DNA from: Lichina pygmaea
Lineage: Eukaryota; Ascomycota; Lichinomycetes; Lichinales; Lichinaceae
Length of the DNA: 64,000 bases
Reading direction: 5' to 3'
Assembly (NCBI GenBank): GCA_963422465.1
Contig: OY730171.1
Coordinates: 4,112,202-4,176,201, forward strand
Shown piece after piece: positions 5,525 to 57,874 of the stretch; within the stretch, counting starts at the first letter, position 1, and each line of letters starts with the position of its first letter. Made by a program: the position numbers and the translations under genes. The notes beneath the pieces are model-generated. The model searched no databases, was not told the origin of the DNA, and saw nothing but the letters and a program-made list of their open reading frames with translations.

Positions 5525-5565
5525 GAGAGAGAGAGAGAGTGTGTGTGTGAAAGAGAGAAAGAGAA
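5525..5565. repeat. GA/GT dinucleotide microsatellite
   Basis: About eight GA units run into five GT units and then GA-rich sequence. It lies in the 3' flank of the minus-strand PNRC-like gene. Confidence 0.8.
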
Positions 5566-5679
5566 AACGTCACGGACAGCCTCTCCAAAGGGGTATGCGG
5601 CTCATGCCATCTCCATCATGCCACCGTTGGACGTGGTGGCTAGGTGGATCCCAGCAACGCACTGTAAATGGCAGATTTG

Positions 5680-7284: not shown

Positions 7285-8289
<1,005 letters not shown>

Positions 8290-15800: not shown

Positions 15801-16861
15801 GACTACTCTAGATGTTGCACCACCCTGCAAGCCATGATCTGGGGGGTGAGTGCTGCTGATACAAACATGAGGTTGATTGTGCTCTCCAGGTTCCTGGCCC
15901 ACCAAGTGATCATGCCTGGAGGGAGAGCAAGTTGCAGACTGGTGGTGGCAGCTGTGTCAAGTAGGCTGTCCACCACCACATGTTGTGTGAGGCACTGCTG
16001 GCCTCCCCAGCTCAGATAGTGTAGATTAAAGTCTCCAGCTATGACATGGTGGACACTGGGGACTGCCCAGAGTCTAGCTGTCAACTTGTTGATAACTGGT
16101 GTCTCCAGAGTGGTTTGGTGTCACAGTGAGAGACTATAGATGTTATGGATGTGGATCAGAGCCAGCTGACTTCCACACATAGTTTGGATTGCCAGTGTCA
16201 TGATGTCCAGATTGCCTGCTCTATTGATCTCCCAGCTGTCTGGGTGTACAGTCTTATTGATGTTTTTTATTTATTTATTTGATTCTTACACTGATAGTAT
16301 CTTTTCAGCCATGCAGATCTTCTAGCTAAGAGTGAGTCTCTTCAGAAAACTTTTAAAGAAATAAAAACTGAAGACTGGAAGTGACTAGGAAATGTAGTAA
16401 AAGAAAATCTTGTAGTGACTGGTAGAAAGAAAACTTCTAGATATTAGAGTGTGAATAGTGGAGTTTGAAAGCCAGATTAAACTGGTTTAGTTTTTTCAAA
16501 AACATAAACCAGTATAGAAACTTCTGTAGAAGCTCTGGGTTTGAAATAATAGAAGTGAAATCTTGAGAATTAAAAAAGACTTGCTGTCTTTGACTTGAGT
16601 AAAGAGAGTATGAAGAGGTGATATATTTCACTGTCTTTTCTGCTTGACCACAAATGCATAAAGGAGTAGGAAAATCTAGAACTCCAGCTCTGAATAGAAA
16701 ACTTGCCAGACCAATTCTCCCAGTTCTGGTTTGTAGTAGCAGGCTTACCTCAGCTTTCTGTAACTCTTTGTAGAGCTTCAGATTGTTGTGGTGAGGCTTT
16801 TGGCAAAACACCTGCCACCCAGAGTAGCTTCTTCTTTTCTTCTCCTTCTATTAGTCTTCCC

Positions 16862-17972
16862 GGCCTGCAACGACTCGAACCTCCACGTGGTGCAGGCTGG
16901 GAATCTTGGGGCAGTTGATGGTGGGCAGCTTCCCAGGCTGCTCGTAGTTGCTGCACTGAGAGCTAATCAAGTCACCAGTCGAGCTGCTGGTGTTGCGGAG
17001 TGACAGGCCACTGGAGGTGTCGCGCAGGCACCCTGGATGCCCCTGTGAAACAGCTACAGCAGAACAGAGGACTGCGACCAAGCTTGGGAGAGGAAAACCA
17101 CCTGACAGACGACTACCGTGTACACTACAGCCTGAAGCCAGCCCCACAGCTGGTGGATGTGAAGTCTAGGCGTCTGATAGGGCACCTCTGGAGTAGTCGA
17201 GAGGAGTTCTCATCACATCACCCTCCTAGCAGAGTCTCCAGCTAACGTGTGAGGATCTGCTAGGGGGGGAGTGGCCTTGGCACTGCAGTGTTGTTAATCA
17301 AACAGGGACCACCTGTTAAAGAAGGAGAGTGGTCGTACGAGGAGACGTCACCACTCCAGTGCCTAAGGGCTGTGTGATAGCCAAAGTGCTGGCTTGATGG
17401 TTTTGCCTAAGGCCTTGCCACGAAGTCTCTTCGTACAATCCACAATCTGGGGCCAGGGGACTGGGTTATCCAGTGGGCCAACAGGTGCAACCGGGGCCCC
17501 ACAGGCAACAGCAGACCAAGGAGAACTCCTCCCTACTTGGTTAGTGGGCTGGAAAGGCAGCCCTGCAGGTGCTGGCACAGCCTGCAGGATCTGTAAGGCC
17601 TGCGAGGCATGGTCGGCCTTTGTACGAGAGATCTGCGAAGGTAACGCGAAACAGTTAACAACTGCGAGGCGTGGTATATAATGGCAGTGATGGAGGTAGG
17701 GCCTGGGCCTACTACAAGACTGTCTATATGGCCTGAGAGGACAGATGCGCATGCCGGTTCGTACGGAGTGCAGGCTTAGACTGCAAACGACAAGCTCAGG
17801 GAGCAAACTACAGTTGGAGCGTGGGCTCTGGGCTGGTGACCCAGCGCTCCGAAGCAGGATCCCAGGGGTGACCATGTACGGTGGAGTGCAAGAGACCTCG
17901 GAACTGTGGGAAAGTGTGGTAGAGACCCTGTGGGGGGGTGCCAACTCTACACTATGTTCTGGCATAGTACGA
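16862..17972 (+). other. Non-LINE 5' moiety of the chimera, origin unknown
   Basis: About 1.1 kb of GC-richer sequence with CpGs, joined directly to LINE RT at about 17973. It contains related stretches GCGAGGCATGG (17607-17617) and GCGAGGCGTGG (17664-17674), a TATATAA (17676-17682) and small hairpins such as GAAGTCTCTTC near 17420. No tRNA, rRNA or conserved protein is recognised. It could be a cellular transcript captured by template switching. Confidence 0.5.
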
Positions 17973-19485
17973 CTGTGGCTTCTATTCCTATTCACTGTGG
18001 AGTCCCCCAAGATTCCCCTTTGTCTCCTATTCTTTTTCTATTCTATATTTCTGAACTTCATGAGACTGTATATTCTTCTACTACTGGTGTTTTTGCTCTG
18101 GGATTTGCAGATGATACAAATCTGCTTGCATTTGGACACTCTCTTAAAAGCAACCTTCTGAAGTTGAAGAATACACATCTTAAATGTCTATCTTGGGCTG
18201 CAAGACATGGAATAGTCTTCTCTCCTGAGAAATATAAAATACTTTATTTTTCCAGAAGAAGATCAGACAATCTGCAGCTCAAGCTTAGACTTGGGAATGT
18301 GATTCTAAAACCAAAAGAAGAAGTGTGAGTATTGGGAGTGTACCTGGATGCCAAACTCCACTGGCACAAACACCAGAGAATTATTCTTCAAAAAACACAA
18401 AAAGCACTATCTTCTCTTTCTAGAACCTCTTACTCCATCTGGGACTTTCCAGTTCTCACAGCACACCTTGTGTACACTGCAATACTCAGATCTGTACTGA
18501 GCTATGCAGTGGGAATTTGATTCAACCCACTCAGAAAATCCTCTAATATTTCCTCTCTTATCATATTCCAAAACAAATGTCTGAGACTTATTGGGGGTGC
18601 TTTCAAAGCCACTCCTTCTTTTCTATTAGAGAGTGAGCTTTTTTTTTTACCCCTAGATCTCTATTTTAAATTTCGCACAGCTTGTTTTCTATCTTCTATC
18701 CAAACCTTCTCTCTGAAAGACTTTCTTGACAGTACCTTTTCTACTATTTCTTCCTATACTTCTTCACTGAGGAAACTTTTAAAGAAATCTTCAACTATCT
18801 CTCCTAATTGGAAGTTCACTTGGTTAAGTCAAATAACTACTAACCAGGCTAGTTCAAAGAAAGAACTACAAATACTCTTTACTAAAGAGTGGGAAAACCA
18901 ATGGGAGGAGAAGAAAAGAAAAAGCTATGCTGGATAGCAGGTGTTTTGCCAAAAACCTCACTACAACAACCTAAAGCTCTACAAAAAGCTACAGAAAGCT
19001 GAGGCAAGTCTACTACTGCAAACCAGAACTGGGAGAATTGGTCTAGCAAGTTTTCTTTTCAGAGCTGGAGTCCCTGACTTTCCTACCCCCCTATGCATGT
19101 GTGGTCAAGCAGAAGAGACAGTAAAGTATATTACCTCTTCATGCTCTCTCTACTCAAGTCAAAGACAACATGCTTTCTTTAACCCCCAAGATTTCACTAC
19201 TATTATTTCAAACCCAGAGCTTCTACAGAAGTTTCTGTACTGGTTTATGTCTTTGAAAAGACTAAACCAATTTAATCTGGCTTTCAAACTTCACTATTCA
19301 CACTCCAACATCTAGAAGCTTTTCCTACCAGACACTACAAGATTTCCTTTTGCTACACTTTCTAGTCACCTCCCTGGCTTCAGTTTTTATTCCTTTAAAG
19401 GTTTTCTGAAGAAGTTCACTATTAGCTGGAAGATCTGCATGGCTGTAAAGCTACAAACAGTGTAAGAATCAAATCAAATCAAAAA
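16862..19485 (+). mobile_element. Chimeric retrosequence: non-LINE 5' part plus LINE family-1 3' part
   Basis: Bounded by the 12-bp duplication ATTAGTCTTCCC at 16850-16861 and 19486-19497 and ending in an A-rich tail (AAATCAAATCAAAAA), so it inserted as one unit. From about 17973 it is the LINE family-1 RT 3' portion: CGVPQDSPLSPILF, ALGFADDTNLLAFG at about 18094-18135, then the C-terminal finger at 18941-19315. Nonsense codons lie at 18326-18328 (CGA to TGA) and 18518-18520 (TGG to TGA). The first 1.1 kb (16862-17972) is unlike any LINE part in this window, is richer in CpG, and encodes nothing I recognise. The layout resembles the Magnaporthe MINE chimeras. Origin of the 5' part is unknown. 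Confidence 0.8.
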
Positions 19486-21717
19486 ATTAGTCTTCCCACT
19501 CTTTAACAAAAAGCTTCTGTAGTTCTTTCTTTGAACTAGCCTGGTTAGCAGTTATTTAGTTTAACTAAGTGAACTTCCAGTAGAAAGAGATAGTTGGAGA
19601 TTTCTTTAAAGGTTTCTTCAGGGAAGAGGTATATTGGGAGATATTAGAAAAAATATTGTCCAGAAGTGATTTCAGAGAGGAGGTTTGAATAGAAGAGAGG
19701 AAACAGGCTGTGTGAAATTTGAAATAGAGATCTAGAGGTAAAAGAAAAAGCTCACTCTCTAATAAGAAAGATGGAGTAGCTTTGAAGGCACCTCCAATAA
19801 GTCTCAGACATTTGTTCTGGAATATGATAAGAGAGGAAATATTAGAAGATTTTCTTAGAGGATTAAACCAGATCCCCACTGCATAGCTCAGTAAGGATCT
19901 GAGTATTGCAGTATACACAAGATGTGATGTGAGGACTGGGAAACCCCAAGTAGAATATGAAGTTCTGGAGAGAGAGAAGAGTACTTTCTGAGCTTTTTCA
20001 AGAATAATTCTCTGGTGCTTATGCCAGTGGAGTTTTGCATCCAGGTACACTCCTAATACTCGCACTTCTTCTTTTGGTCTTAGAATCACATTCCCCAGTC
20101 TGAGCTTAAGCTGAAGATTGTCTGATCTTCTTCTGGAAAAATGAAGTATTTTATATTTCTCAGGAGAGAAGACTATTCCATGTCTTGCAGCCCATGATAG
20201 ACATTTGAGGTGTGTGTTCTTCAACTTCAGAAGGTTGCTTTTTAGAGAGTGTCCAAATGCAAGCAGATTTGTATCATCTGCAAATCCCAGAGCAGAAACA
20301 CCAGTGGAAGGAGAGTGTACAGTTTCATGAAGTTCAGAAATGTAAAATAGAAATAGAATAGGAGATAAAGGGGAACCTTGGGGAACTCCACAGTGAATAG
20401 GAATAGCAGAAGACTCAGAGTCATCAAACACAAGAGTGGTAGAACAACTGGTGCAGAAAGAGAGAATCCGGGAAGATAGCCAGAGAGGAATTCTTTTTCT
20501 CTCTAGGATTTGTTGGAGGATCTTAGGTAGAACTCTATCATAGACTTCTGAGATATCCAGAGAGAGTAGAGATATAACTATACCTTCCTTCCAGACTTTT
20601 TCCACTTGGGAGGTCAGTAGAAAGAGTGCTGATTTAGTTGATCTTTTTTTTCTGAAGTCTATCTGGATTTCTGGCAAAGGTTTAGCTTCTTCTGCTACCT
20701 TGCTTAGCCTAGCTGCTGTAATAGCTTCTATCAGCTTGCCAGTTGTGTTGAGCAAAGCTATAGAGCACCAGGCTTTGGCTTGGTTATAGCTTCCTTTGCC
20801 AGGTTTTCTTAGACAGACTGTCTTTGCATTCTTGAACCTCTCAGGAAAGTATTCCAGTCTCCAGCATGTTGATGTGAGAATAGCTATAGCTTGGCAGAAC
20901 TTGAGACCAGAGCTTTCAGAAATCTATTTGGCAGCTTATCTTTTCCCCCTGCTGTAAAAAGTTTCTTCTTGTTTAGGATTTACTCCACTTCTTCAGCAGT
21001 AACCTCCTGGGAGAGCTGGATCTCTGGAGTACTCTGGGATCTCTCTGTACTTGGTTCTGGAGTGAGTGCTTTGGGAAAGAACTAGGCTGAGAATACTTTT
21101 ATCTTCTCCTCAAAGAGTTTAGCTAGTCCTTCTTAAGTTTCCAAGTCTGGGACCAGAGAAAGATCAGAAGTCCTGTTGGCTTTTGTCTTTCCCCACTTTG
21201 CAAGCTTCCAGAATTTTGAAGAACTGGCTAGCTCATGGACTTGTTGCCTAAAAGTGTTCTGCTTTCCCTCTCTGACTGCTTTTTTCTTGTTCTTGGTTGC
21301 TTGCTCTAGATCTTCTTGGGATGTCTGTTCTCTGAGAACTTGTCTTCTTACTTTTCTTTCCTCTCTAACCTTATTTTGGATCTCTTGGTTCCACCAGGGA
21401 ACTGAGTGACCAGATTGCTTCTGGAGCTGTGTGTATTTGCTTGCCACTTCTTGGAGAAAGTTGTCCAGATACTCCAAGTACTTATCTATCTTATTGATGT
21501 AGAAGCAGACATAGGTGCACTCTGTGAGAGTGAAAGCTAGATAAAAACAGCTCCCTGGCAGGTTATACAAGGTTTGCTGGTGAGAGTTCTGCCAGAGCTC
21601 TTGTACTGTGACAACATCCAGCTTCTTGCTGGCAAGTCCCCAGAGTAGTGGTGCTATTGTACTGTTCTTCCTGCAGACATTGTACTGCAAGATGTGGAGG
21701 TTCTGGTGTGGGTTCAT

Positions 21718-24966: not shown

Positions 24967-26358
24967 ATGGCTCCCAAGAAGAAAAAACCCACCTCTTCAG
25001 AAAGTAACACCAGAGCTACACCAGCTATACTCTCCCAACCAGCTTCCAGTCTGCCTAGCACCCAGTCCAGCTCTCCTACCCTCCAACCAGCTCCCCAGAA
25101 TGACTACAAACTAGTAGACTCCTGGATCAAAACCCAACCAGTCCCAGAATCTATTCTGAAAAGCTGGGAAAATATCAAAAAGAACTCCTTCTCTACAGAA
25201 GCCCAGTCTAGCTCTACTGGCCTCACCAACAGAATCTTCCAGGAGCTGGAGAATATCAACAAGCGGCTGGACAAACAAGAAGCCAAGCCATCATATGCCC
25301 AGGCTGTCCAAAAATCTATTCCAGCGCAAATCCCTCTACCTGCAAGAATTCTCAAAGAAGTTCTTGTACATCCTGGTATCCAGCCAACTGACATGGCTAA
25401 TAGAACTCACATCCAGCTTTTCCAGACTCTTCAAGACAGACTACCCAGCCCCTACAACAAGCAGGTCAGAGCAGTAAGGAAACTTCCTTCAGGGGATATC
25501 CTTATTAACACAGAAAGCCAAGAGACTAAAGTCTTCCTAGAGAAAAACCCTGCCTGGGTATCAGCTATATTCACAAAGGAAGCAACCATCCAGCCCAAGA
25601 GATTCCCAGTTCTGATCCATGGAGTCAGAACAGAAGATATCCAACCTGAAGACCTGGAGAAAACCTGCCAGATAATCCAGAACAGCAACCCATCTCTGAG
25701 CAAACAAATCACCATCCTGAGAGCCTACTGGTCTAAGAAGGCTATAGCTCAAAAGAAGCCAGTTACCTCTCTCCACCTGGATCTGGCTACCCCTGAACAA
25801 GCCAATCTTTTGATTGAGAGTGGGCTAGTGCTGGGGCACAGGATGCATGAAGCAGAACCTTTTCTGGCAGACACAGTTATTGCACAATGTTTCAAGTGCT
25901 TTGGCTATGGGCACCAAGCACGCTTCTGCAAGAACAAAGCTGTGTGTGGTGCCTGTGGAGGCCAGCATGAAAGGAGAGCCTGCCAAGTTCCTGAACAGCT
26001 TCTCAAGCCAAAATGCTGCAACTGCAGAGGAGCTCACCCAGCCTGGGCCAGTGTCTGTCCAGTACGCCAGGAAGCAGCCAAGAAGGCAAGAGAAGCATGG
26101 AACACACGCCCAGGAAAATATAAGATCCCAACAGCTACCTCTGTTCCAGCTCTACAACCCCCCCCAGTTATGTCTTTCCCTCTCTCTCAGTCTCTACCAG
26201 GGGGGAAAAAACATAAAACAGCTGAGCCAAGCAGAAGCTCAGAGAGACTCAGAGGTGCACTCCCAGAAGTGCAAATTCTTTCTTCAAGATCAGCCAACTC
26301 TGGAGGAAAGCTACCAGCTAACTCCTTCAAGATCTTTGATGCTGAGATGTCTGCATGA
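24967..26358 (+). CDS. LINE family-1 ORF1 protein (gag-like, zinc knuckles), intact
   Basis: 463 aa, start MAPKKKKPTSSESN. The N-terminus is basic then Ser/Pro/Gln-rich; a short coiled-coil-like stretch follows (NRIFQELENINKRLDKQEA), then an RNA-binding middle (VRAVRKLPSGDILINTES, VLIHGVRTEDI). Around residues 307-365 come three Cys-rich knuckles: CFKCFGYGHQARFC, CGACGGQHERRAC and CCNCRGAHPAWASVC. The C-terminus ANSFKIFDAEMSA matches the family-3 ORF1 end (NSFEILVD), which supports this reading frame past the G6A6 run at 26201-26212. ORF1 binds LINE RNA and chaperones target-primed reverse transcription. The stop overlaps the ORF2 start as ATGA. Confidence 0.9.
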   Translation: MAPKKKKPTSSESNTRATPAILSQPASSLPSTQSSSPTLQPAPQNDYKLVDSWIKTQPVPESILKSWENIKKNSFSTEAQSSSTGLTNRIFQELENINKRLDKQEAKPSYAQAVQKSIPAQIPLPARILKEVLVHPGIQPTDMANRTHIQLFQTLQDRLPSPYNKQVRAVRKLPSGDILINTESQETKVFLEKNPAWVSAIFTKEATIQPKRFPVLIHGVRTEDIQPEDLEKTCQIIQNSNPSLSKQITILRAYWSKKAIAQKKPVTSLHLDLATPEQANLLIESGLVLGHRMHEAEPFLADTVIAQCFKCFGYGHQARFCKNKAVCGACGGQHERRACQVPEQLLKPKCCNCRGAHPAWASVCPVRQEAAKKAREAWNTRPGKYKIPTATSVPALQPPPVMSFPLSQSLPGGKKHKTAEPSRSSERLRGALPEVQILSSRSANSGGKLPANSFKIFDAEMSA

Positions 26359-28918
26359 AAGACACAAAGCTGACACTTCTCCAGTATAATGTGCAAAAAA
26401 GCCAATCAGTCCAAGAGCTACTGCTAGCAACCTCAGCTCTCCAAGAGGTGGATATTATTGCACTTCAAGAGCCCTGGAAAAACCCTCACCTAGAAACAAG
26501 CACTTCAACTGTTTTCTCTTCCTTTCTTCCTCTCTACTGTTCAGAGATTGGCAGAACACTTTTTCTTATTAATAAAAATCTGAAACTCTCTTCTCTTCAT
26601 CCTACCTTCTGGAATAAAGACTTTGTTTCTCTTGAAATCTACTTGGAAAACTCTCCTACTTCTCTTTGGGTACATAATCTCTACTTCACCCCATCAAGTC
26701 AAGAAAACTACACAGAGGCATCAGAAGCTCTTCTCTGTTTACTCCAAAATGCTTTACAAGAACAAGGACAACATATTCTTCTCACAGACTCAAATCTTCA
26801 CCACACAGACTGGTCAAAGAAAAGAAGACTGTACTCTGAGACTGCAAACAAGTTTCAAGACCTAATGAAAGATTTAAATCTGGATTTAGCTATTGCACCT
26901 TTCACCCCTACCAGAGCAAGATCTCTTTCTGAAAAACCATGTTCTTCTATTGATCTGTCTTTTATTTCTTCTTCTCTTTCTAACTCTCTGATTTTCTCTA
27001 AAGTGGCTCTTCAGTTCTTTCATGGGTCTGACCACAGACCTGTACTAACCTGCCTGGACCTGGATCCTCCAAGGAAAATCTGGAAACCAGAAAGAAACTG
27101 GAGAACACTGGACTCAAACCTTGCAAGAGTAGAGTGTGAGAAGCTACACCTGCCCTTCCACTTCCAAGACAAATATGAAGTGGATGAGTACTTGGAGTAT
27201 CTTGACAACTTTCTCCAAGAAATAGCAAGCAAATCCACACAGCTCCAGAAGCAATCTGGCCACTCAGTTCCCTGGTGGAATCAAGAGATCCAAAACAAGG
27301 TTAAAGAGGAAAGAAGAGTAAGAAGAAAAGTGCAAAAAAGGCAAGCAAGTCAAGAGGAACTTGAGCAAGCAACTAAGCTCAAGAAAAAGGCAGTCAGAGA
27401 TGGAAAACAGAACACTTTCAGACACCAAATCCATGAGCTGGCCAGCTCTTCAAAGTTCTGGAAGCTTGCAAAGTGGGGAAAGTCCAAAGCCAACAAGACT
27501 CCTGATCTTCCTCTGGTTCCTGACCTGGAAACACAAGAAGGAATAGCCAAAACCTTTGAGGAAAAGACTAAAGCCTTCTCACAACAGTTCTTTCCAAAAG
27601 CTCTAGTTCCAGAACCAGGCTCAGAAAGCTCCCAGACTATCTCTGAGATACAGCTCTCCCAGGAGGTAACATGTGAAGAAGTGGAGCAAATTCTGGCCAA
27701 GAAGAAACCTTTCACAGCAGGAGGGAGAGATAAGCTGCCAAATGGATTTCTGAGAGCTCTGGGGCCTAGGTTCTGCCAAGCTCTAGCTATTCTGACTTCA
27801 ACATACTGGAAACTGGAGTACTTCCCTGAAAGATTTAAGAGTGCAAAAACAGTCTGCTTGAGGAAACCTGGCAAGGGAACCTACAATCAAGCTAAAGTCT
27901 GGCGCCCTATAGCTCTGCTAAACACAACAGGCAAGCTGATGGAAGCTATTGCTGCAGCCAGACTAAGCAAGATAGCAGAAGAAGCTGGACTATTGCCAGA
28001 TATCCAGATGGGCTTTAGGAAAGGAAGATCCACAGAAGCAGCACTTTTCCTTCTAACCTCCCAAGTGGAAAAAGTCTGGAAGGAAGGCATAGTTGCATCC
28101 CTACTCTCACTGGATATCTCAGGAGCCTATGACAGAGTTCTCCCCAAGATACTACAGCAAATTCTGAAAAGAAAAGGAATACCTGCCTGGCTAGCTTCCT
28201 GGATCTACTCCTTCTGTGATAAGCACTCTACCACTCTTGTCTTTGATGATTCTGAGTCTTATTCTATTCCTATTCATTGTGGAGTTCCTCAAGGTTCTCT
28301 ATTATCCCCTATTCTTTTTCTATTCTACATTTCTGAATTGCATGAGACTGTGCATACTCCCTCTTCTGGTGTATCTGCCCTGGGGTTTGCAGATGATACA
28401 AATCTGCTTGCTTTTGGTCACTCCTTGAAAAGTAACCTTCTGAAGATAAAGAACACACACCACAAATGTCTATCCTGGGCTGCAAGATATAGAATAGTCT
28501 TCTCACCTGAGAAATATGAAATACTTCATTTTTCCAGAAGAAGATCAGACAATCTTCAGCTCAAGCTCAGACTGGGGAATGTGATTCTCAAACCAAAAGA
28601 AGAAGTGCGAGTACTTGGAGTGTACCTAGATGCAAAGCTCCACTGGCACAAACACCAGAGGATTATTCTTCAAAAAGCACGGAAAGCACTCTCTTCTCTT
28701 TCTAGAACTTCCTATTCTACTTGGGGCTTTCCAGTTCACACATCACGTCTGGTGTACACTGCTATACTGAGATCTCTACTGAGCTATGTGTTACGACCCA
28801 GGGATGGGAGCCACTCATTTATAGGCAATCAGGCCGCGGGCCAGGCAAGGACACCATGGAAGTCAAGTGACCAACCAACAAGGGGTCACGTGACTGTCGA
28901 GACACACACAGGAGTCTT

Positions 28919-29044
28919 GACGCATGATGCATGAAGTATTGAGACAATCTCACCAGTCTCGACGCATGATGCATGAAGCATCAAGACAATCTCACCAGTC
29001 TCGACGCATGATGCATGAAGCATCAAGACAATCTCACCAGTCTC
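28919..29044 (+). repeat. 42-bp minisatellite in the LTR U3, three units
   Basis: Three units of exactly 42 bp, each starting GACGCATGATGCATGAAG. The unit contains the palindrome ATGCAT. It lies between the antisense and sense TATA boxes, where an enhancer would be expected. Unit number varies between LTRs: one in the 5' LTR of copy C, three in most others. Confidence 0.9.
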
Positions 29045-29143
29045 GACGCAGGGTGCATAACATGGTGGGACTGTCAAGACAATCTCACCCATCTCGACGT
29101 CAAGACTGTCGAGACAATCTTGATTGTCTTGACAGGCCAGCAC

Positions 29144-29150
29144 TATATAG
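29144..29150 (+). promoter_or_regulatory. Sense TATA box of the gypsy LTR
   Basis: TATATAG lies 36 nt upstream of GTCTTCAA (29180-29187), the likely first bases of the element mRNA. The same arrangement is present in copies B and C. Confidence 0.65.
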
Positions 29151-29385
29151 TCCAGTGATAGTTCCCTTATGGAACAATTGTCTTCAACTCATGTTGTGAT
29201 CCAGACAACTAGATCTACTTCAATACAATCCTTTGTACGAAGCCATTGATCAGGTGTCACCACCACCACGTTCCACCAAACCCCTTCGCGCTCCTTGACA
29301 CTCCTCTCCTGCGAGAACCAACCCGCCTTCCACCTCTCACCCTAATCCTATACTTGGGTAGGACAGTACAGTACGGACCGCAATA

Positions 29386-30941: not shown

Positions 30942-33900
30942 ATGACCCCTAGCAACGCAAAGCACCTGCGATTGCCTGTGTCACTACACGCCAACACGCC
31001 AGTACGGACATACGCACTTGTTGACTCTGGAGCCAGTGGAAACTACATTTCAAGACAACTTTACGACACCCTCGGCACTGGAAGGAGACGCAAGCAGCAG
31101 CCCTATCAGCTCGCGATGGCAAATGGACAGACAGAGCTAGTCTGCCATGAGACACAGCCAATGGAAATAGTTACCGGACACTATGCTGAAAGGATCCACC
31201 TTGATATTGTCGAGTTGGCCACTCAGGATATCTATTTGGGGATGCCTTGGCTAAAGAAGCACAACCCAGTTGTTAACTGGAAGACAGGAGTACTCATGTT
31301 TAGGAACTGCACTAACAACGCAGCTTGGACCTGTTACCAGCCGCAGAAGGCGTGGACAGATGAGGGAAGGAGTCCTCAGTGGAACCTCACTGACAGAAAG
31401 GATGACTCTCAAAAGAAGAGGTCCACCTTGACAGGCACACCCCAGAACCAGGTGGCCAAACAGTCAGAGATGAAGAGAGAGGAAGTTGTTAACCCTCTGG
31501 AGATCCCTGAAGAGTACTGACCTGGGTATGATAACCTCTTTCAGGAAGAGACAACAACAGCAGTGTTGCCTAAGCACCAACCTTGGGATCATGAGATCAA
31601 GTTGCAACCAGGGACGGAGCCAGAATTTGGACCAATTTACCAGTTATCAGAGAAAGAGCTCCAAGTACTTCGCGAGTACCTGGAGGAAAACCTGAAAAAG
31701 GGTTTCATTCAAGAATCTCAATCGCCAGCAGGATACCTGATACTATTTGCACCAAAGAAAGATGGAAGTCTTCGACTTTGTGTGGATTACAGGAAACTCA
31801 ACGACATTACCATCAAGAATCAATATCCACTGCCAAATGTGAACGAATTGCGAGACAGGATCAGCCAAGCTACAATCTTTACCAAGCTGGACTTGAAAGG
31901 AGCATACAACCTGATACGCATGAAAAAAGGAGAAGAATGGAAGACAGCCTTCAGAACCTGATACAGACACTACGAGTATCTGGTTATGCCATTCAGACTC
32001 ACAAACGCACCAGCAACATGTCAAGCATTGATCAACAATGTCATCAGAGCACACCTGGACCAAACAGCTATCGCCTACCTGGACAACATTCTTGTCTACT
32101 CGAACACGCAACAAGAACATACCAAACATGTGAAGGATGTTCTACGATGTCTACAAGAGGCAGGGCTCAAGCTCAACCCAAAGAAATGCGAGTTCAACAA
32201 ACCAGAAGTTGAATTCCTCAGATACATCATAGGGATCAAAGGGATCAAGATTGACCCTGAGAAAATCAAAGCGATTCAGCAATGGCCAACACCGACATCA
32301 GTTAAGGAAGTACAAGCCTTCCTAGGATTTGCCAACTTCAACCAACAGTTCATCAAGAACTACTCACAGATAGCAACACCACTGACAGAACTCACAAAGA
32401 AGGACGTAGAGTACCGGTGGACGGAGAGACAACAAAAAGTATTCCAACAGCTCAAGGACACTTGCGCCAAGGAACCAGTTCTCCTCAACTTCAAGACAGG
32501 CCAACCGACACGAATTGAGACAGACACTTCAGATCAGGCAGTGGGAGCATGTCTATGCCAACAGGCAGACGGCAAGTGGCACCCAGTTGCCTACTACTCA
32601 CGAAAGATGACATAAGCGGAACAAAACTATGATATCCACGATAAAGAGCTACTGGCAGTTGTCAACACACTCGAACACTGGAGAGTGTACGCGGAAAGCA
32701 GTTCCGAACTCACCATTCTCACAGACCACAAGAATCTGACAACGTTCACGACAACCAAGAAGCTGAACAGACGGCAAGTCAGATAGGCTGAACTCCTAGG
32801 GCAACACAAGTTCAAGATCTTGTACACCCCTGGACAAGACAATGGGAGAGCAGACACACTAAGCTGACAAAAAGACCACATAGAAGATGATGAACACCAA
32901 GGAACAATCTTACAGCAGGACCAGCAAGGAAACCTGGTGCCCCAGCCACAGATCAACGAGCTCACGGCAGAAGACACTGAAGAACTAATAAGGAACTACC
33001 ATGATAACCCAGCACACGGTCACCCAGGAATCTCCAAGACCACAGACCTTATCCAACAGGCAGGGAACAATGTCATTAACCTCTGACAACATGTCACAAA
33101 CTACATCAGCAAGTGTCTACTATGCCAGAAAAACAAACATGGAAGACATAAGCCATACGGAGAAGGACACCCGAACACGATACCGAAAGGCCTGTGGGAA
33201 GACATGTCAATGGACTTCATCACAAAGCTACCCAAGTCCAAAGACCCAGTCACAGGAATCACCTACGACTTGATTATGGTGATAGTGGACAGATTCACAA
33301 AATATCTAATAGTGGTACCATTCAAGGAAACCCACACAGCAGAACAGTTGGGACACCTTTTACTGGACAGATTGGTCAGAGACCACAGAGTTCTGATCAC
33401 AATCATTACAGACAGAGACAAACTCTTCACATCCAACTACTGGAAGACAATCAGTGCAGCCATGGGAACAAAACCCAAAATGTCTACAGCCTATCACCCA
33501 CAAACTGACAGCCAGACAGAGCGAGCGAACCAAGTCCTGGAGACTTACTTACAGCATTACATCAACAAGACCCACAGCAATTGGGTACAGTTATTACCGG
33601 TGGCACAGCTGGCAATCAACCAGCACAGATCAGACTCAACAAAGGAATCGCCATTTTTTGCCAATTTTGGACAACATGCGAACATCGGGATGCCAAGCAG
33701 AGCTTCACCAAACACGGAGAAAGCACTCCAACATGACAAGCTCCTACGACAAACGCACACGATGATGAGGCACTACCTTCAAGAGACCTCAGAAAGAATG
33801 CAACGTCAAATGGACAAGAAATCAAAAATGGCACCTCAGCTAAAGAAGGGGGATAAAGTCTACCTCCTCACAAGAAATTGGAAAATGAAGAAACCAAGAA

Positions 33901-34241
33901 CAAAGAAACTGGACCATGTCAAGGTCAGACTATTTTCAGTCGAAGAAAAAACTGGACCAGTCAACGTCAGACTGCGACTACTGAGAGACGCTCGGGTACA
34001 CCCAAACTTTCACATCTCAATGATCGAATTAGCTGACCAGAGCACACCCTTGCAGGAAACATTTCATTACCAACCAGAGGAAGAACAGGAATTCAAGGCT
34101 GAACAGATCCTGAAGAGAAAAGGTCAGCAATACCTTGTCAAGTGGAAAGACTACCCAGACTCGGAAAATACCTGGGAGCCACTCAGGAACCTCGCGAACT
34201 GCCAGCTCCTCCTGCAGCAGTTCCGGCAGGAGCAGGACTGA
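30942..34241 (+). pseudogene. pol of gypsy copy A: protease, RT, RNase H, integrase, chromodomain, broken
   Basis: Domain order read directly: aspartic protease (ALVDSGASGNYIS), RT ([22 protein letters not shown]), RNase H (SDQAVGACLCQQAD), integrase (HHCC-type finger, SMDFITKLPKSKDPVTG, TERANQVLE) and a C-terminal chromodomain ([18 protein letters not shown]). The chromodomain in related elements guides insertion to heterochromatin by reading H3K9 methylation. Span is 3300 bp in all three copies. Broken. Confidence 0.9.
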
Positions 34242-34683
34242 ACAGCTCAGCCTGCAGCACAGACGCATCAATGACTGTCGCCGACAAGTCTTCACCATCC
34301 GCCTCTATTTCAGTAACAAGGCACTGGAGCTTCTTCTTTGCTTGACCCTCAGCACCCTCAAGAACCTTTCACTTTCAGGACACACGAGCCTGCAGCTCGG
34401 CAAGCTGCTTGACAAGAGCATCCCACTTGGCCTTATTGACAGCCAAATCCTCGCAAAGGTTATCCCAAGTCATGTTCAGCGACTCCCAAGAAAGTGACAC
34501 ACAGGACTTTCCCTGACGAGTGCACTCAGCGCACTTCAACTTATCATTGTTGTCAGACATTCGGAAGCAGGGCTTGTGGTTCAAAACACAGAAGTCACAC
34601 GGAGCAAGCGACACGAAGTTATGATCACAGATCTGGGCTGCCAGTTGGTTTCGGTAAGCAGAGGCACGTGATTTTGCAGACAT
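34183..34683 (-). pseudogene. Antisense frame with Zn2Cys6-like cluster, gypsy copy A
   Basis: A 501-bp frame on the opposite strand, starting MSAKSRASAYRNQLAAQ 45 nt inside the 3' LTR and ending inside the chromodomain-coding strand. Residues about 29-61 have C-x2-C-x6-C, 11 residues, then C-x2-C-x6-C (CDFCVLNHKPC and CAECTRQGKSC), the spacing of fungal Zn(II)2Cys6 clusters. A Lys/Glu/Leu-rich probable coiled coil follows. It is the same length in copies B and C; interrupted here. Basic residues usual between the first Cys pair and third Cys of Gal4-type clusters are partly absent, so DNA binding is only a hypothesis. Confidence 0.7.
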
Positions 34684-34710
34684 ACTCAAGAATTCATCGG
34701 AATGATGAAT

Positions 34711-34724
34711 GAAGGAGAGGAGGG
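34711..34724 (+). promoter_or_regulatory. Polypurine tract, gypsy copy A
   Basis: GAAGGAGAGGAGGG just before the 3' LTR primes plus-strand DNA synthesis in this family. It is also kept in copies B and C. Confidence 0.8.
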
Positions 34725-34727
34725 TAG

Positions 34728-35326
34728 TGTTACAACCCAGAGATGGGAGCCACTCATTTATAGGCAATCAGGCCGCGGGCCAGGCAAGAGGACACTATGG
34801 AAGTCAAGTGACCAACCAACAAGGGGTCACGTGACTGTCGAGACACACACGGGAGTCTTGACGCATGATGCATGAAGCATTGAGACAATCTCACCAGTCT
34901 TGACACATGATGCATGAAGCATCAAGACAATCTCACCAGTCTTGACGCATGATGCATGAAGCATCAAGACAATCTCACCAGTCTTGACGCAGGGTGCATA
35001 ACATGGTGGGACTGTTGAGACAATCTCACCTGTCTTGACGTCAAGACTGTCGAGACAATCTTGATTGTCTTGACAGGCCAGCACTATATAGTCTGGCGAT
35101 AGTTCCCTTATGGAACAATCGTCTTCAACTCATGTTGTGATCCAGACAACTAGATCTACTTCAATACAATCCTTTGTACAAAGCCATTGATCAGGTGTCA
35201 CCACCACCACATTCCACCAAACCTCTTCGCACTCCTTGACACTCCTCTCCTGCGAGAACCAACCCACCTTCCGCCTCTCGCCCTAATCCTATACTCGGGT
35301 AGGACGGTACGGTACAGACCGCAACA
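34728..35326 (+). repeat. 3' LTR of gypsy copy A
   Basis: 599 bp, TGTTACAACCC...GACCGCAACA, with three 42-bp units as in the 5' LTR. Followed by the CTATG target duplication. Confidence 0.93.
34756..34762 (-). promoter_or_regulatory. Antisense TATA box in the 3' LTR
   Basis: On the minus strand TATAAAT lies 79 nt upstream of the antisense start codon at 34683. A start of transcription 30 nt downstream would fall at the LTR edge and give a 5' leader of about 45-50 nt. The same box is in the LTRs of copies B and C. Confidence 0.55.
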
Positions 35327-37344
35327 CTATGCAGTGGGGATCTGGTTTAACCCTCTAAGAAAATCCTCCAATATCTCTTCTCTTGTTTCATTTCAAAACA
35401 GATGCCTAAGACTTATTGGGGGTGCCTTCAAAGCCACTCCTTCTTTTCTATTAGAGAGTGAGCTTTTTCTTCTACCTCTAGACCTATACTTTAAATTTCG
35501 CACTGCCTGTTTTCTTTCTTCTATTCAAAACTCCCCTCTCAAATACTTTCTTGACAGTATCTTTTCCACTATTTCCAGCTATGCCTCTCTCTTGAAGAAA
35601 CCTTTAAAGGAATCCTCAACTATCTCTCCTAAGTGGAAATTCACTTGGTTAAGTCAAATAACTACTAACCAGGCTAGTTCAAAGAAAGAACTACAAAAGC
35701 TCTTTACTAAAGAGTGGGAAGACCAATGGGAAGAGAAGAAAAGAAGAAGCTATCCAGGCTGGCAGACTTTCTGTCAAAAGCCACACAAAAACAATCTGAA
35801 GCTCTACAAAGAGTTACAGAAAGCTGAGGCAAGTCTGCTACTGCAAATCAGGACTGGAAGAATTGGTCTGGCAAGTTTTCTTTTCAGAGCTGGAGTTCCT
35901 GACTTCCCTACCCCACTATGTGTGTGTGGCCAAGCAGAAGAAACTGCAAAACATATCACCTCTTCATGCTCTCTTTATTCAAGACAAAGACAACAAGTCT
36001 CTTTTAATCCCCAAGACTTCACCACTATTATTTCAAACCCAGAGCTACTACAGAAGTTCTTGTACTGGTTTATGTCTTTGAAAAGACTAAACCAGTTTAA
36101 TCTAGCTTTCAAACTCCACTATTCCCAATCCAATACCTAGATTCTCTTCTCTTACCAGAAACTTCAAGATTCCTTTTGTTACATTCCCTAGTCACACCCT
36201 GCCTTCAGTTTTTATCTCTTCAAAGGTTTTCTGAAGGAGTTCACTATTAGCTAGAAGATCTGCATGGCTGTAAAGCTACTACCAGTGTAAGAATCAAATA
36301 AAATAAAATAAAGCACATTCCAGAACTACATCAATGATATTTTGAGACCTGACATCCTTGACGTCTTTGGCACTGCCTATGTGGATGACATTCTTATCTA
36401 CAGTCAGACACTCAAGAAACACTGGAAGCATGTCAAGCTTGTTCTCAGTCAACTACAAGATACAAGCCTGCAAGTTGACATCTCCAAGTGTGACTTTGAA
36501 GTCCATCAAGTCAAGTACCTTGGCCTTATCATTCAGTCTGCCACTGAAGATAGCTGACCCAGATCTGTGAGCATGGACCCAGCCAAGACTGACACCATCA
36601 AGGAGTGGAAGCCTCCTGCCAGTCTCAAGGAAGTGCAGAGCTTTATTACCTTTGCAAACTTCTACCACTGGTTTATCAAAGACTTTGCCAAGCTTGCATC
36701 CCTGCTCACAGCTCTGACCAAGAAGAATATTGCCTTCAAGTGGGAAACCCCAGAGCAGCACTTGTTTGAAAGTATCAAGAAGGTGTTCAGCACTGCACCC
36801 ATCCTGCAGCACTTTGATCTGGAGAAGGAGTGTGTTGTTGAGACTGACACTTCTGACTACATCTCTGGTGCTGTCCTGTTACAGCCAGACCATGAAGAAG
36901 TTCTACACCCTGTTGCCTTCTTGTCACACCACCACCTGCCAGCAGAATACAACTACAAGATCTATGACAAGGAGTTGCTGGCAATTGTCTGTGCCTTTGA
37001 AGAATGGCGAGCAGAGCTTGAAGAATCTCCAGAACCTGTCAAGGTGATCTCTGATCACAAGAACTTGGAGTACTTTATGTTGTCAAAGTGTCTTTCCTGC
37101 TGTCAAGCCTGTTGGAGTGAGTTCTTGTCAAACTTCAATTTCAAGATCAGATACTGTCCAGGCAGTCAGTGCAAGACCAACACCCTCACTCAACATTCCC
37201 AAGACCTCCTGTCAGACAGTGATCCCTGTCAAGACTTCATGGAGTAAGTCGTCCTCAAGCCCAAGAATCTTGTACATTCAGAGGTTCAAGTCAAGCCTAT
37301 CCAGATCCTGAGACATTCAAAAGCTGCACTAGTTGACACTGAAC

Positions 37345-37944
37345 TGTTGCGGTCTGTACCGTACTGTCCTATCCGAGTATAGGATTAGGGCGAGAGGTGG
37401 AAGGCGGGTTGGTTCTCGCAGGAGAGGAGTGTCAAGGAGCGCGAAGGGGTTTGGTGGAATGTGGTGGTGGTGACACCTGATCAACGGCTTCGTACAAAGG
37501 ATTGTATTGAAGTAGATCTAGTTGTCTGGATCACAACATGAGTTGAAGATGATTGTTCTATAAGGGAACTATCGCCAGACTATATAGTGCTGGCCTGTCA
37601 AGACAATCAAGATTGTCTCGACAGTCTTGACGTCAAGACAGGTGAGATTGTCTTGACAGTCCCACCATGTTATGCACCCTGTGTCAAGACTGGTGAGATT
37701 GTCTTGATGCTTCATGCATCCTGCGTTGAGACTGGTGAGATTGTCTTGATGCTTCATGCACCCTGCATCAAGACTGGTGAGATTGTCTCAATGCTTCATG
37801 CATGCTGCGTCAAGACTCCTGTGTGTGTCTCAACAGTCACGTGACCCCTTGTTGGTTGGTCACTTGACTTCCATGGTGTCCTCTTGCCTGGCCTGCGGCC
37901 TGATTGCCTATAAATGAGTGGCTCCCATCCCCTGGGTCATAACA
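37345..37944 (-). repeat. 3' LTR of gypsy copy B
   Basis: 600 bp in minus orientation, bounded by TGTTGCGGTC and GTCATAACA on this strand. Contains the 42-bp unit array and both TATA boxes. Confidence 0.93.
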
Positions 37945-37988: not shown

Positions 37989-38489
37989 ATGTCTGCAAAA
38001 TCATGTGCCTCTGCTTACCGAAACCAACTGGCAGCCCAGATCTGTGATCATAACTTTGTGTCACTTGCTCTGTGTGACTTCTGTGTTTTGAACCACAAGC
38101 CTTGCTTCTGAATGTCTGACGACAACGATAAGTTGAAGTGCACTGAATGCACTTGTCGTGGGAAGTCCTGTGTGTCACTTTCTTGGGAGTCGCTGAACAT
38201 GACTCAGGATAACCTTCGCGAGGATTTGGCTGTTGATGAGGCCAAGTGGGATGCTCTTGTTGAGCAGCTTGCCAAGCTGCAGGCTCGTGTGTCCCGAAAG
38301 TGAAAGGTTCTTGAGGGTGCTGAGGGTCAAGCAAAGAAGAAGCTCCAGTGCCTTGTTGCTGAAATGGAGGTGGATGGTGAAGACTTGTCGGCAACAGTCA
38401 TTGACGCGTCCGCACTGCAGGCTGAGCTGTTCAGTCCTGCTTCTGCCAGAACTGCTGCAGGAGGAGCTGGCAGTTCGCGAGGTTCCTGA
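37989..38489 (+). pseudogene. Antisense frame with Zn2Cys6-like cluster, gypsy copy B
   Basis: The copy-B counterpart of the antisense frame: 501 bp, same start (ATG at 37989, 45 nt from the 3' LTR) and same end. It lies on the plus strand because the element is minus. Cys spacing is the same. Interrupted. Confidence 0.65.
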
Positions 38490-43286: not shown

Positions 43287-43886
43287 TGTTGCAGTCTGTA
43301 CCGTACTGTCCTATCTGAGTATAGGATTAGGGCAAGAGGTGGAAGGCAGGTTGGTTCTCGCAGGAGAGGAGTGTCAAGGAGTGCGAAGGGGTTTGGTGGA
43401 ACGTGGTGGTGGTGACACCTGATCAACAGCTTTGTACAAAGGATTGTATTGAAGTAGATCTAGTTGTCTGGATCACAACATGAGTTGAAGACGATCATTC
43501 CATAAGGGAACTATCGCCGGACTATATAGTGCTGGCCTGTCAAGATGATCAAGATTGTCTTGACAGTCTTGATGTCAAGATGGGTGAGATTGTCTCAACA
43601 GTCCCACCATGTTATGCACCCTGCGTCAAGACTGGTGAGATTGTCTTGATGCTTCATGCATCCTGCGTCAAGACTGGTAAGATTGTCTTGATGCTTCATG
43701 CACCCTGCATCAAGACTGGTGAGATTGTCTCGATGCTTCATGCATGCTGTGTCAAGACTCCCATGTGTGTCTCGACAGTCACGTGACCTCTTGTTGGTTG
43801 GTCACTTGACTTCCATGGTGTCCTCTTGCCTGGCCCGCAGCCTGATTGCCTATAAATGAGTGGCTCCTATCCCCTGGGTCGTAACA
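43287..43886 (-). repeat. 5' LTR of gypsy copy B
   Basis: 600 bp, followed on the minus strand by the primer-binding site (TTGAAGAC) and gag start. The matching LTR is at 37345-37944. Confidence 0.93.
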
Positions 43887-44735: not shown

Positions 44736-45250
44736 TGTTACGACCCAGGGATGGGAGCCACTCATTTATAGGCAATCAGGCCGCGGGCCAGGCAAGAGGA
44801 CACCATGGAAGTAAAGTGACCAACCAACAAGGGGTCACGTGACTGTCGAGACACACACGGGAGTCTCGACACATGATGCATGAAGCATCGAGACAATCTC
44901 ACCAGTCTCAACGCAGGGTGCATAACATGGTGGGACTGTCAAGACAATCTCACCTGTCTTGACGTCAAGACTGTCGAGACAATCTTGATTGTCTTGACAG
45001 GCCAGCACTATATAGTCCGGCAATAGTTCCCTTATGGAACAATCGTCTTCAACTCATGTTGTGATCCAGACAACTAGATCTACTTCAATACAATCCTTTG
45101 TACGAAGCCATTGATCAGGTGTCACCACCACCACGTTCCACCAAACCCCTTCGCGCTCCTTGACACTCCTCTCCTGCGAGAACCAACCTGCCTTCCACCT
45201 CTCGCCCTAATCCTATACTCGGGTAGGACAGTACGGTACAGACCGCAACA
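44736..45250 (+). repeat. 5' LTR of gypsy copy C, short form
   Basis: 515 bp with one 42-bp U3 unit instead of three. All other landmarks (antisense TATA, CACGTG, sense TATA, GTCTTCAA) are kept. Confidence 0.93.
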
Positions 45251-49800: not shown

Positions 49801-50106
49801 TCAGTCAAAGAAAAAACCGGACCAGTCAACGTCAGACTGCGACTACCGAGAGACGCTCGGGTACACCCAAACTTTCACATCTCAATGATCGAATTAGCTG
49901 ACCAGAGCACACCCTTGCAGGAAACATTTCATTACCAACCAGAGGAAGAACAGGAATTCGAGGCTGAACAGATCCTGAAGAGAAAAGGTCAGTGATACCT
50001 TGTCAAGTGGAAAGACTACCCAGACTCGGAAAATACCTGGGAGCCACTCAGGAACCTCGCGAACTGCCAGCTCCTCCTGCAGCAGTTCCGGCAGGAGCAG
50101 GACTGA
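46807..50106 (+). pseudogene. pol of gypsy copy C, broken
   Basis: Protease (LVDSGASGNYIS), RT (AYLDDILVY), RNase H, integrase (SMDFITKLPKSKDPVTG near 49075) and chromodomain ([17 protein letters not shown] near 50000-50045). 3300 bp as in the other copies. Broken. Confidence 0.88.
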
Positions 50107-50548
50107 ACAGCTCAGCCTGCAGCGCGGACACATCAATGACTGTCGCCGACAAGTCTTCACCATCCGCCTCCATTTCAGCAACAAGGCACTGGAGCTTCTT
50201 CTTTGCTTGACCCTCAGCACCCTCAAGAACCTTTCGCTTTCGGGACACACAAGCCTGCAGCTCGGCAAGCTGCTTGACAAGAGCATCCCGCTTGGCCTCA
50301 TCAACAGCCAAATCCTCGCGAAGATTATCCCGAGTCATGTTCAGTGACTCCCAAGAAAGTGATACACAGGACTTTCCCTGACGAGTGCACTCAGCGCACT
50401 TCAACTTATCGTTGTCGTCAGACATTCAGAAGCAGGGCTTGTGGTTCAAAACACAGAAGTCACACGGAGCAAGTGACACAAAGTTATGATCACAGATCTG
50501 GGCTGCCAGTTGGTTTCGGTAAGCAGAGGCACATGATTTTGCAGACAT
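50048..50548 (-). pseudogene. Antisense frame with Zn2Cys6-like cluster, gypsy copy C
   Basis: 501 bp, start at 50548, 45 nt from the 3' LTR at 50593. The second half (50048-50425) shows CAECTRQGKSC, then a probable coiled coil with Leu at heptad-like intervals (LVKQLAELQ, KRKVLEGAEGQAKKKLQ), an acidic patch and a Gly/Ser-rich tail. Interrupted once or so. Confidence 0.68.
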
Positions 50549-50592: not shown

Positions 50593-51191
50593 TGTTACAA
50601 CCCAGGGATGGGAGCCACTCATTTATAGGCAATCAGGCCGTGGGCCAGGCAAGAGGACACCATGGAAGTCAAGTGACCAACCAACAAGGGGTCACGTGAC
50701 TGTCGAGACACACACGGGAGTCTTGACGCATGATGCATGAAGCATTGAGACAATCTCACCAGTCTTGACGCATGATGCATGAAGCATCGAGACAATCTCA
50801 CCAGTCTTGACGCATGATGCATGAAGCATCAAGACAATCTCACCAGTCTCGACACAGGGTGCATAACATGGTGGGACTGTCAAGACAATCTCACCTGTCT
50901 TGATGTTGAGACTGTCGAGACAATCTCGATTGTCTCGACAGGCCAGCACTATATAGTCTGGCGATAGTTCCCTTATGGAACAATCGTCTTCAACTCATGT
51001 TGTGATCCAGACAACTAGATCTACTTCAATACAATCCTTTGTACGAAGCCATTGATCAGGTGTCACCACCACCACGTTCCACCAAACCCCTTCGCGCTCC
51101 TTGACACTCCTCTCCTGCAAGAACCAACCCGCCTTCCACCTCTCGCCCTAATCCTATACTCGGGTAGGACGGTACGGTACAGACCGCAACA
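50593..51191 (+). repeat. 3' LTR of gypsy copy C
   Basis: 599 bp with three 42-bp units, preceded by the polypurine tract and followed by TCTGA. Confidence 0.93.
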
Positions 51192-51908: not shown

Positions 51909-52175
51909 TGTCACAGTTCTGGTCCAGTTGCATATCTGGCACAAGTCACACACCTTGCCGGGAAGTTCCATCTGCACTGTTGCCTGTTTGCTCCACTGTA
52001 TCCCCTGCCTATAAGAACTTCTCCTGCTCCCCCAGCTTCTTCTCTTCTTCTTTTCTTTTTACCTTCCTTGTCTTTCATCTTGTACATCAATCCAAGTCTC
52101 AAGTCTCAAGCCAAGTCAGGTCAAGGTTACTGAATCAGTTAGACTCGAGTTCTGCTCTGCTATTGCCTTGTCACA
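51909..52175 (+). repeat. 3' LTR of gypsy element D
   Basis: 267 bp, TGTCACAGTTC...CCTTGTCACA, preceded by the purine tract GAAGGAGGGGGG. It contains CTATAAGAAC, a possible TATA box near 52010, then CT-rich sequence. It abuts family-3 LINE coding sequence at 52176. Confidence 0.8.
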
Positions 52176-57600: not shown

Positions 57601-57874
57601 AAATAAAGTCTTTACTCCAGAAAGTAGGATGAAGAGAAGAGAGTTTCAGGTTTTTATTAATAAGAAAAAGTGTTCTACCAATCTCTGAACAGTAAAGAGG
57701 AAGAAAAGAAGAGAAAACAGTAGAGGTGCTTATCTCCAGGTGAGGGTTTTTCCAGAGTTCTTGAAGTACAATAATATCCACCTCTTGAAGAGCTGAGGTT
57801 GCTAGAAGTAGCTCTTGGACTGATTGGCTTTTTTGCACATTATACTGGAGAAGTGTGAGCTTTGAGTCTTTCAT
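54632..57874 (-). pseudogene. LINE family-1 ORF2, copy B, three in-frame stops
   Basis: 3243 nt in a single frame, equal in length to copy A. Stops at 57416-57418 (TAG at a Trp codon), 56975-56977 (TAA at a Gln codon) and 55043-55045 (TAG at a Trp codon); all are single C-to-T or G-to-A transitions relative to copy A or the family. Domains: endonuclease, RT with GFADDTNLLAFG, C-terminal finger CVCGQAEETVKHITSSC. Confidence 0.9.

Follow-up and report, generated by a model that had tools for sequence, protein, structure and literature searches.

Results

An antisense gene in three copies of a chromovirus

The window analyzed here is a stretch of 64,000 nucleotides (nt) from the ascomycete Lichina pygmaea (assembly GCA_963422465.1, contig OY730171.1, positions 4,112,202 to 4,176,201; coordinates below are those of the window), whose genome comprises 32.47 Mb in 8 contigs. 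It carries three copies (A, B, and C) of one Ty3/gypsy chromovirus, recognized by an integrase with a C-terminal chromodomain, by long terminal repeats (LTRs), and by target duplications. Each copy contains, between pol and its 3' LTR, a 501-bp frame on the strand opposite to gag-pol. The pattern of substitution indicates that this frame is a genuine protein-coding gene under purifying selection, and its product has a predicted Zn(II)2Cys6-type cluster.

In copy A, the 5' LTR (28789 to 29385, plus strand, end approximate) is followed at a distance by the end of pol (33204 to 34241, plus strand), which encodes part of the integrase, an SH3-like domain, and a chromodomain (PF00385, E 9.7e-16; rve, at E 9e-07, fell just under its cut-off). 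The antisense gene (34183 to 34683, minus strand) has 167 codons including the stop. A 44-nt gap (34684 to 34727), which contains the sense polypurine tract and forms the antisense leader, separates its ATG from the 3' LTR (34728 to 35326, plus strand), and a 5-bp target duplication, CTATG, surrounds the element. Copy B lies on the minus strand, with its 3' LTR at 37345 to 37944, its antisense gene at 37989 to 38489 (plus strand), its 5' LTR at 43287 to 43886, and the target duplication GTTCA. Copy C has its 5' LTR at 44736 to 45250 (plus strand), its antisense gene at 50048 to 50548 (minus strand), its 3' LTR at 50593 to 51191 (plus strand), and the target duplication TCTGA.

A first-pass annotation of this DNA had described the 501-bp frame in all three copies, and each does run from an ATG to a shared terminal stop and encode the cysteine spacing C-X2-C-X6-C-X11-C-X2-C-X6-C. 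None of the three is open, however: copies A and B each have two in-frame TGA codons and copy C has one, and these stops had been missed. The frame start had been placed 45 nt inside the 3' LTR; instead the ATG, which ends at 34683, is outside the LTR, 44 nt short of its edge at 34728. The frame does reach into chromodomain-coding DNA as proposed, but the coding overlap with pol is only 56 nt in copy A and 89 nt where pol is 11 codons longer, and a long overlap with the chromodomain was therefore rejected. Given so small an overlap, at least 136 of the 167 antisense codons fall between pol and the 3' LTR, in DNA that is noncoding on the sense strand.

Copies of the gene elsewhere in the genome came from searches in which 503 to 509 candidates arose and 150 were scored. 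When residues 1 to 102 served as query, all 150 scored (of 503) matched, many of them stop-free. Because the searches used proteins, copies with ruined frames are under-sampled. One hundred gene stretches and the three window copies gave 103 oriented rows, 82 of which fit the window type, called G1, without gaps. The other 21 rows, 20 of types G2 and G3 and one that is incomplete (L019), did not enter the count of G1 frames. G2 is a second element type in the same genome, with an antisense protein 72% identical to that of G1. The ATG was kept in 81 of the 82 G1 rows and the final stop in all 82. The frame was open in 23, a fraction biased by the first 20 stretches, which were chosen mostly for long open frames and supply 19 of the 23; among the remaining 63 rows, 4 were open. 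TGA accounted for 106 of the 109 in-frame stops. The pol stop of copy A (34239 to 34241, plus strand) also varies at the homologous site, being TGA in 71/82 G1 and 4/19 G2 copies; in copies without that TGA, pol extends into the antisense gene by another 11 codons.

Coding constraint on the antisense strand

For a codon-substitution test, 23 open G1 frames (of 82) were compared with 6 open G2 frames (of 18), which gave 138 pairs. The test was limited to codons 1 to 136, which lie outside pol even where pol is extended. Differences at codon positions 1, 2, and 3 came to 31.4, 23.4, and 73.7. The ratio of nonsynonymous to synonymous substitution rates (dN/dS) on the antisense frame had a mean of 0.10 (range 0 to 0.155), a value that is approximate because synonymous sites are near saturation (mean proportion of synonymous differences, 0.71). 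The antisense frame was stop-free in all 138 pairs, and each of the other five frames had 1 to 18 stops in every pair, both copies counted. In addition, we constructed a shuffle null that preserves the mutation spectrum and the CpG context (three G1/G2 pairs, 400 shuffles each). Identity of the antisense proteins was 0.71 versus 0.46–0.48 under this null (z 8.1–9.1).

One sense-strand frame behaved in part like the antisense frame. Sense+1 had a low dN/dS (mean 0.20; range 0.15–0.27), an identity above its null (0.62–0.63; z 5.4–6.5; the other four frames were not above theirs), and an open stretch of at least 173 codons in four of six G1 copies inspected, as might be expected if the antisense frame were a by-product of sense-strand constraint or of chance. 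Sense+1 has 5–10 stops in each of the 138 open-copy pairs, where the antisense frame has none, and pol terminates ahead of the tested region; with the codon test and the shuffle null, these results refute that explanation, to which we give practically no credence. We put the low dN/dS of sense+1 down to what would be a shadow cast by aligned wobble positions. Since the tested codons lie outside pol, the sense chromodomain is not the source of the substitutions. Together, the codon test and the null point to a constraint best explained by the antisense protein and indicate that the frame is more than a chance opening.

Among G1 copies, 15466 of 20237 differences (800 pairs) are CpG-type transitions, the kind of change by which methylated repeats usually decay. 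The rest are distributed 1152, 400, and 3219 over codon positions 1, 2, and 3, and 56% of these non-CpG differences are synonymous, where an assumed transition weight of 4:1 predicts 26%.

The predicted protein and its relatives

The antisense product has 166 residues, with cysteines at C29, C32, C39, C51, C54, and C61. Each of the six is kept in 80–82 of the 82 ungapped G1 copies and in all 18 G2 copies read. Zn(II)2Cys6 clusters have the spacing CX2CX6CX5-12CX2CX6-8C, and the antisense protein conforms to it. In the AlphaFold model, short helices at residues 30–34 and 52–57 lie one in each CX2CX6C half, where block values of the predicted local distance difference test (pLDDT) are 61–79; the model thus has the two short helices of the known Zn(II)2Cys6 fold. 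A 63-residue helix follows (66–128; block pLDDT 92–98 from residue 71) and is probably a coiled coil. Structure comparison with the PDB gave low Z scores (2.1–3.0), and all 11 PDB entries among the matches listed were Zn2Cys6 factors, including HAP1, PUT3, PPR1, and GAL4; 25 chains were re-ranked, and the absence of other folds among them is no evidence. Superposition gave 1.5 Å over 34 residues for PPR1 and 2.0 Å over 36 for GAL4.

Four of the eight most distant relatives matched the Pfam family PF00172 (Zn_clus) weakly (best E 0.0019, 18.7 bits against a cut-off of 21), and the relatives P0001, P0002, and P0005 gave no match to it. A profile search of PDB sequences gave 11 weak matches at E about 1, LAC9 and GAL4 being two of them, and the cysteines line up in the LAC9 alignment; a PDB sequence search with the window family gave no match. 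The earlier reading of a zinc cluster followed by a coiled coil is supported by the predicted fold and, weakly, by the Pfam and PDB profiles. Pfam scans of the antisense proteins recognized no effector or activation domain beyond the cluster and coil.

A protein search found 65 relatives, of which 21 were aligned and were 55–74% identical to the query, and a profile search found 154, with at least 120 listed. The near-identical relatives doubtless come from the L. pygmaea genome or one very near it; P0002, for example, is identical to a G2 copy (L021). The relatives P0005 (64% identical) and P0057–P0059 (59–61%, partial) keep the cluster and fit none of the types found in this genome. Among the matches listed, P0059, from the ascomycete Watsoniomyces obsoletus, is the only homologue with a named source. 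Some predicted relatives (P0005) have an N-terminal extension resembling the complement of the polypurine tract plus the LTR edge, a hint that the gene may occupy the same element position elsewhere. A search of viral contigs found no relatives. An open antisense frame is therefore not confined to the window type, as related proteins exist and G2 keeps the frame. The first-pass annotation had named three observations that would overturn its reading: related elements lacking an open antisense frame, loss of the six cysteines, and substitutions due wholly to the sense chromodomain. None of them was made in the analyses above, and its reading of the frame is supported.

A candidate antisense promoter in U3

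The antisense ATG lies 43–44 nt from the LTR edge, with the complement of the polypurine tract between. An antisense TATA box is present in the U3 of 80/82 G1 copies (TATAAAT) and 18/19 G2 copies (TATATAA), at −77 to −80 from the antisense ATG in the rows inspected. In the window it lies at 34756 to 34762 in copy A (where the minus strand reads TATAAAT and the ATG follows after about 79 nt), 37909–37915 in copy B, and 50621–50627 in copy C. The box is kept though G1 and G2 U3s are otherwise only about 50–67% alike in the pairs compared, and its position fits a putative transcription start near the 3' LTR edge. The sense TATA (TATATA, 35085 to 35090, plus strand, in the copy A 3' LTR) is at the opposite end of U3, and with a box at each end U3 resembles a bidirectional promoter.

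The leader also contains a short out-of-frame ATG (34695–34697 in copy A), about 14 nt ahead of the start codon of the gene; in 100 of 101 copies the final 55 nt of the leader contain one ATG. This ATG might act as an upstream open reading frame.

Half-site arrays between the two TATA boxes

A tandem array lies between the two TATA boxes of each U3, with units of 42 nt in G1 and 50 nt in G2. The window arrays are at 28896–29133 (5' LTR) and 34837–35074 (3' LTR; 42-nt unit) in copy A, 37597–37816 (3' LTR) and 43555–43776 (5' LTR) in copy B, and 44845–44998 (5' LTR, shorter) and 50702–50939 (3' LTR) in copy C. Both types of array contain inverted half-sites around GAG/CTC, arranged as GAG-N5-CTC and then CTC-N6-CTC. 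Counts were made in 80/82 G1 and 19/19 G2 U3s. Inverted GAG-N5-CTC pairs numbered 127 in the G1 set and 72 in the G2 set, against 3.4 and 0.75 in shuffles that keep dinucleotides. The base after GAG, on both arms, was A in 127/127 G1 pairs and C in 72/72 G2 pairs. When every YGAG on either strand was counted, paired or not, the next base was A in 796/855 in G1 and C in 305/353 in G2 (25 A, 23 T). The half-site is thus YGAGA in G1 and YGAGC in G2, a dyad-symmetric one-base change at constant spacing, the pattern to be expected if a dimeric binder had altered its specificity.

GAL4-type proteins contact DNA bases with the region between Cys2 and Cys3. The residues at this place are VLNHKP in G1 and VLRGRP in G2, a change that fits a changed DNA target.

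In G2 U3s (L025 and L022), a single GTGAGA site of the G1 kind persists outside the array, about 108 nt into the LTR, and L025 has one inside the array as well; an older half-site type may have left these sites behind.

Shared gag-pol and a divergent block

The gag-pol sequences of the two types were compared over 3 kb in 21 of 23 rows, two rows being left out (L124, with 1287 nt matched only, and L117). Mean identity was 95.9% within G1 and 96.3% within G2, and 95.8% from one type to the other. The L117 stretch, which lies beside the G2 copy L026, had no match to the G1 reference, and the finding of a shared gag-pol rests on the remaining rows. Over the stretch that begins at the sense TATA and takes in R-U5 and gag, the identity of one G1 copy to three G2 copies was 96.5–96.9%, and the G1 and G2 LTRs compared are near-identical from about the sense TATA onward. 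Over the antisense gene, the types are 60–72% alike, against 93–98% within types over most of its length. In three G1–G2 pairs, the synonymous difference in pol rose from 0–0.16 to 0.32–0.54 about 270 nt before the pol end. With near-identical flanks and a divergent middle, the chromodomain tail, antisense gene, and U3 make up one divergent block.

When gene type and U3 type were paired in the 103 rows, 82 were G1–G1, 19 were G2–G2, none was discordant, and 2 had no readable U3. The G2 label requires four changes on the gag-pol tree, a number reached or undercut in 9/500 shuffles, and 0/200 bootstrap trees gave G2 a single origin; the well-supported branches force one change only, and a single G2 clade was not rejected (approximately unbiased test, p 0.231). 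To judge from these comparisons, the gene and its U3 array appear to have been exchanged as a cassette between elements with the same gag-pol. In retroviral replication, the first strand is transferred at R onto a second packaged RNA, after which the template can switch in pol; the two steps would give the block borders seen here.

A third gene type, G3, is represented by an open copy, L023 (G000:C7:1388562-1390362), and a second place at G000:C3:4397738-4398163; the nearest full-length match of L023 in the genome is 81% identical and a partial match 85%. G3 was rejected as a third cassette, for its LTR side looks truncated beside a foreign LTR and its U3 matches neither type.

Surroundings of the chromovirus copies

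LINE-like non-LTR elements occur at 24967–28934 (plus strand), 52160–54448 (minus), and 55043–56704 (minus); the three frames scanned contain reverse transcriptase, and two of the three have an endonuclease domain. Related repeats at 16265–21486, 35328–36312, and 54455–59742 surround or border the chromovirus copies. Ahead of this repeat block, window positions 1–12000 have a GC content of up to 0.59–0.63 in parts and include host genes for an SMI1/KNR4 protein (1221–3104, minus strand) and a CorA-like transporter (10096–11520, plus strand).

Discussion

The explanation that best accounts for these results jointly is one that we judge, by a narrow measure, to be probable: an antisense gene for a Zn2Cys6-type protein, a U3 that works as a two-way promoter, a dimer of the protein on the U3 array, and exchange of these parts as a cassette. 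The gene between pol and the 3' LTR encodes a protein with the predicted cluster and long helix. Its transcription would run leftward from the conserved antisense TATA in the U3 of the 3' LTR. The protein, as a dimer, would bind the inverted half-sites between the antisense and sense TATA boxes and, once bound, would control sense transcription, its own transcription, or both. Exchange of the cassette would then give the recipient a new regulatory specificity. The first-pass annotation had proposed a regulatory role, and we likewise infer from the sequences that the element encodes a regulator of itself and carries that regulator's sites in U3.

A more specific form of this proposal, which we regard as plausible though short of probable, is that a self-encoded Zn2Cys6 factor and its private operator array are swapped by template switching as one cassette of regulatory identity. 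The half-site change from YGAGA to YGAGC and the changes in the first cluster loop would then mean that each type controls only its own kind.

Several points weigh against both forms. Adjacency together with template switching could by themselves explain the linkage of gene and array. The block borders fit adjacency, with one at the LTR TATA/R region and the other in pol, about 270 nt short of the stop, and the lack of discordant rows among the 101 with both parts is what close linkage alone predicts. As the copies are not independent, the array comparison amounts to a comparison of two arrays only. Finally, an intact pair is absent from 21/80 G1 U3s, presumably through decay. In the competing explanation built on adjacency, the gene is real but its protein has no action on the array, the array being an ordinary enhancer for a host factor and the block having moved by R transfer and one switch in pol. 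We consider this unlikely, though it is the strongest of the competing explanations; it leaves unexplained the symmetric half-site change at constant spacing alongside the VLNHKP/VLRGRP difference.

A protein that binds its array to oppose silencing by methylation or chromatin, in the manner of the VANC proteins of VANDAL elements, which are plant DNA transposons, is more doubtful still. The abundance of CpG-type transitions among G1 copies suggests that silencing by methylation is likely. VANC binds short motifs in the tandem repeats of its own element, and motif and protein change together (PMC5735166). No effector domain was recognized beyond the cluster and coil, and an activator or autorepressor would fit the antisense protein equally well. 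Lastly, antisense RNA itself might be what matters, through double-stranded or small interfering RNA, with the reading frame incidental; the strong purifying selection on the protein, the conserved cysteines, and the retention of the family in other sources nearly refute this, and we give it very little weight.

Returning to the self-encoded regulator, the predicted DNA-binding fold is recognizable, selection is purifying, and a candidate promoter and target array are at hand, so the role is testable by ordinary binding and reporter assays. If the proposal is true, LTR retrotransposons carry private pairs of transcription factor and operator and trade them as modules, and G1 and G2 would be a natural pair, matched in specificity, in which to study the evolution of Zn2Cys6 recognition.

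Comparison with known systems

The antisense protein resembles Zn2Cys6 factors such as GAL4, PPR1, HAP1, and PUT3 in its cysteine spacing, predicted fold, linker and long helix, and dyad targets. It differs from them in that it is encoded by a retrotransposon, is very small, has no recognized activation domain, has a half-site other than CGG, and scores below the Pfam cut-off.

HBZ is a basic leucine zipper (bZIP) protein. The first-pass annotation had drawn a parallel with it that holds for position only: no bZIP match appeared in the Pfam scans, and the antisense protein has a predicted zinc cluster instead; no homology is claimed. HBZ of human T-cell leukemia virus type 1 (HTLV-1; named in PMC11963269) is likewise the product of an antisense gene of an LTR element and is nuclear, and the HTLV antisense promoter lies inside the 3' LTR (PMC7264820).

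VANC proteins, which keep Arabidopsis VANDAL elements free of silencing, are also element-encoded, sequence-specific binders whose motif lies in tandemly repeated noncoding DNA of the same element and comes in types that differ by one base (PMC5735166). The protein is unrelated to that described here, and for VANC binding was demonstrated by chromatin immunoprecipitation and electrophoretic mobility shift assays, in contrast to the inferred binding here.

Closer in position are the plant aORF-3R genes (Grande gene23, RIRE2, Retand TRP28, and PvRetro13), which are also antisense and located between pol and the 3' LTR. Some have a nuclear or predicted DNA-binding product, as for the Retand TRP28 antisense genes; gene23 has its own promoter, and Retand also has tandem arrays (PMC11963269). 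The differences are that these genes encode TRP28 or SMC domains, that Retand is not a chromovirus and its arrays are internal rather than in U3, and that the part of the source available describes no matched exchange of gene and array. The TRP28 domain PF04195 gave no Pfam match at E up to 1 in the 10 antisense-family proteins scanned.

The nearest precedent, missed by the first-pass annotation along with the U3 array and the cassette exchange, is brtn, an additional antisense gene of Boty-like Ty3/gypsy elements of Botrytis cinerea (Zhao et al. 2011, Virology; via PMC8365987, PMC7264820, PMC4227169, and PMC5987419). The gag-pol of the Boty-like element ends in a chromodomain (PMC4227169), and brtn is located between pol and the 3' LTR (review PMC7264820). 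By description, therefore, both are antisense genes in the same place in chromodomain-bearing fungal Ty3/gypsy elements, although the available parts of these sources mention neither a zinc cluster nor a U3 array nor an exchange of cassettes for brtn. No hit named BRTN appeared among the 65 relatives or the at least 120 of 154 profile matches listed, in which P0059 alone carries a source name. Among the papers listed, the literature search found no LTR element with an antisense gene of the zinc-cluster (Zn2Cys6) kind, its coverage being short on subscription journals and the broader results being judged by title and the start of the abstract. What is new relative to these systems is the occurrence of two element types, G1 and G2, with a common gag-pol and R-U5 but different cassettes of chromodomain tail, antisense gene, and U3, each U3 with its own half-site array.
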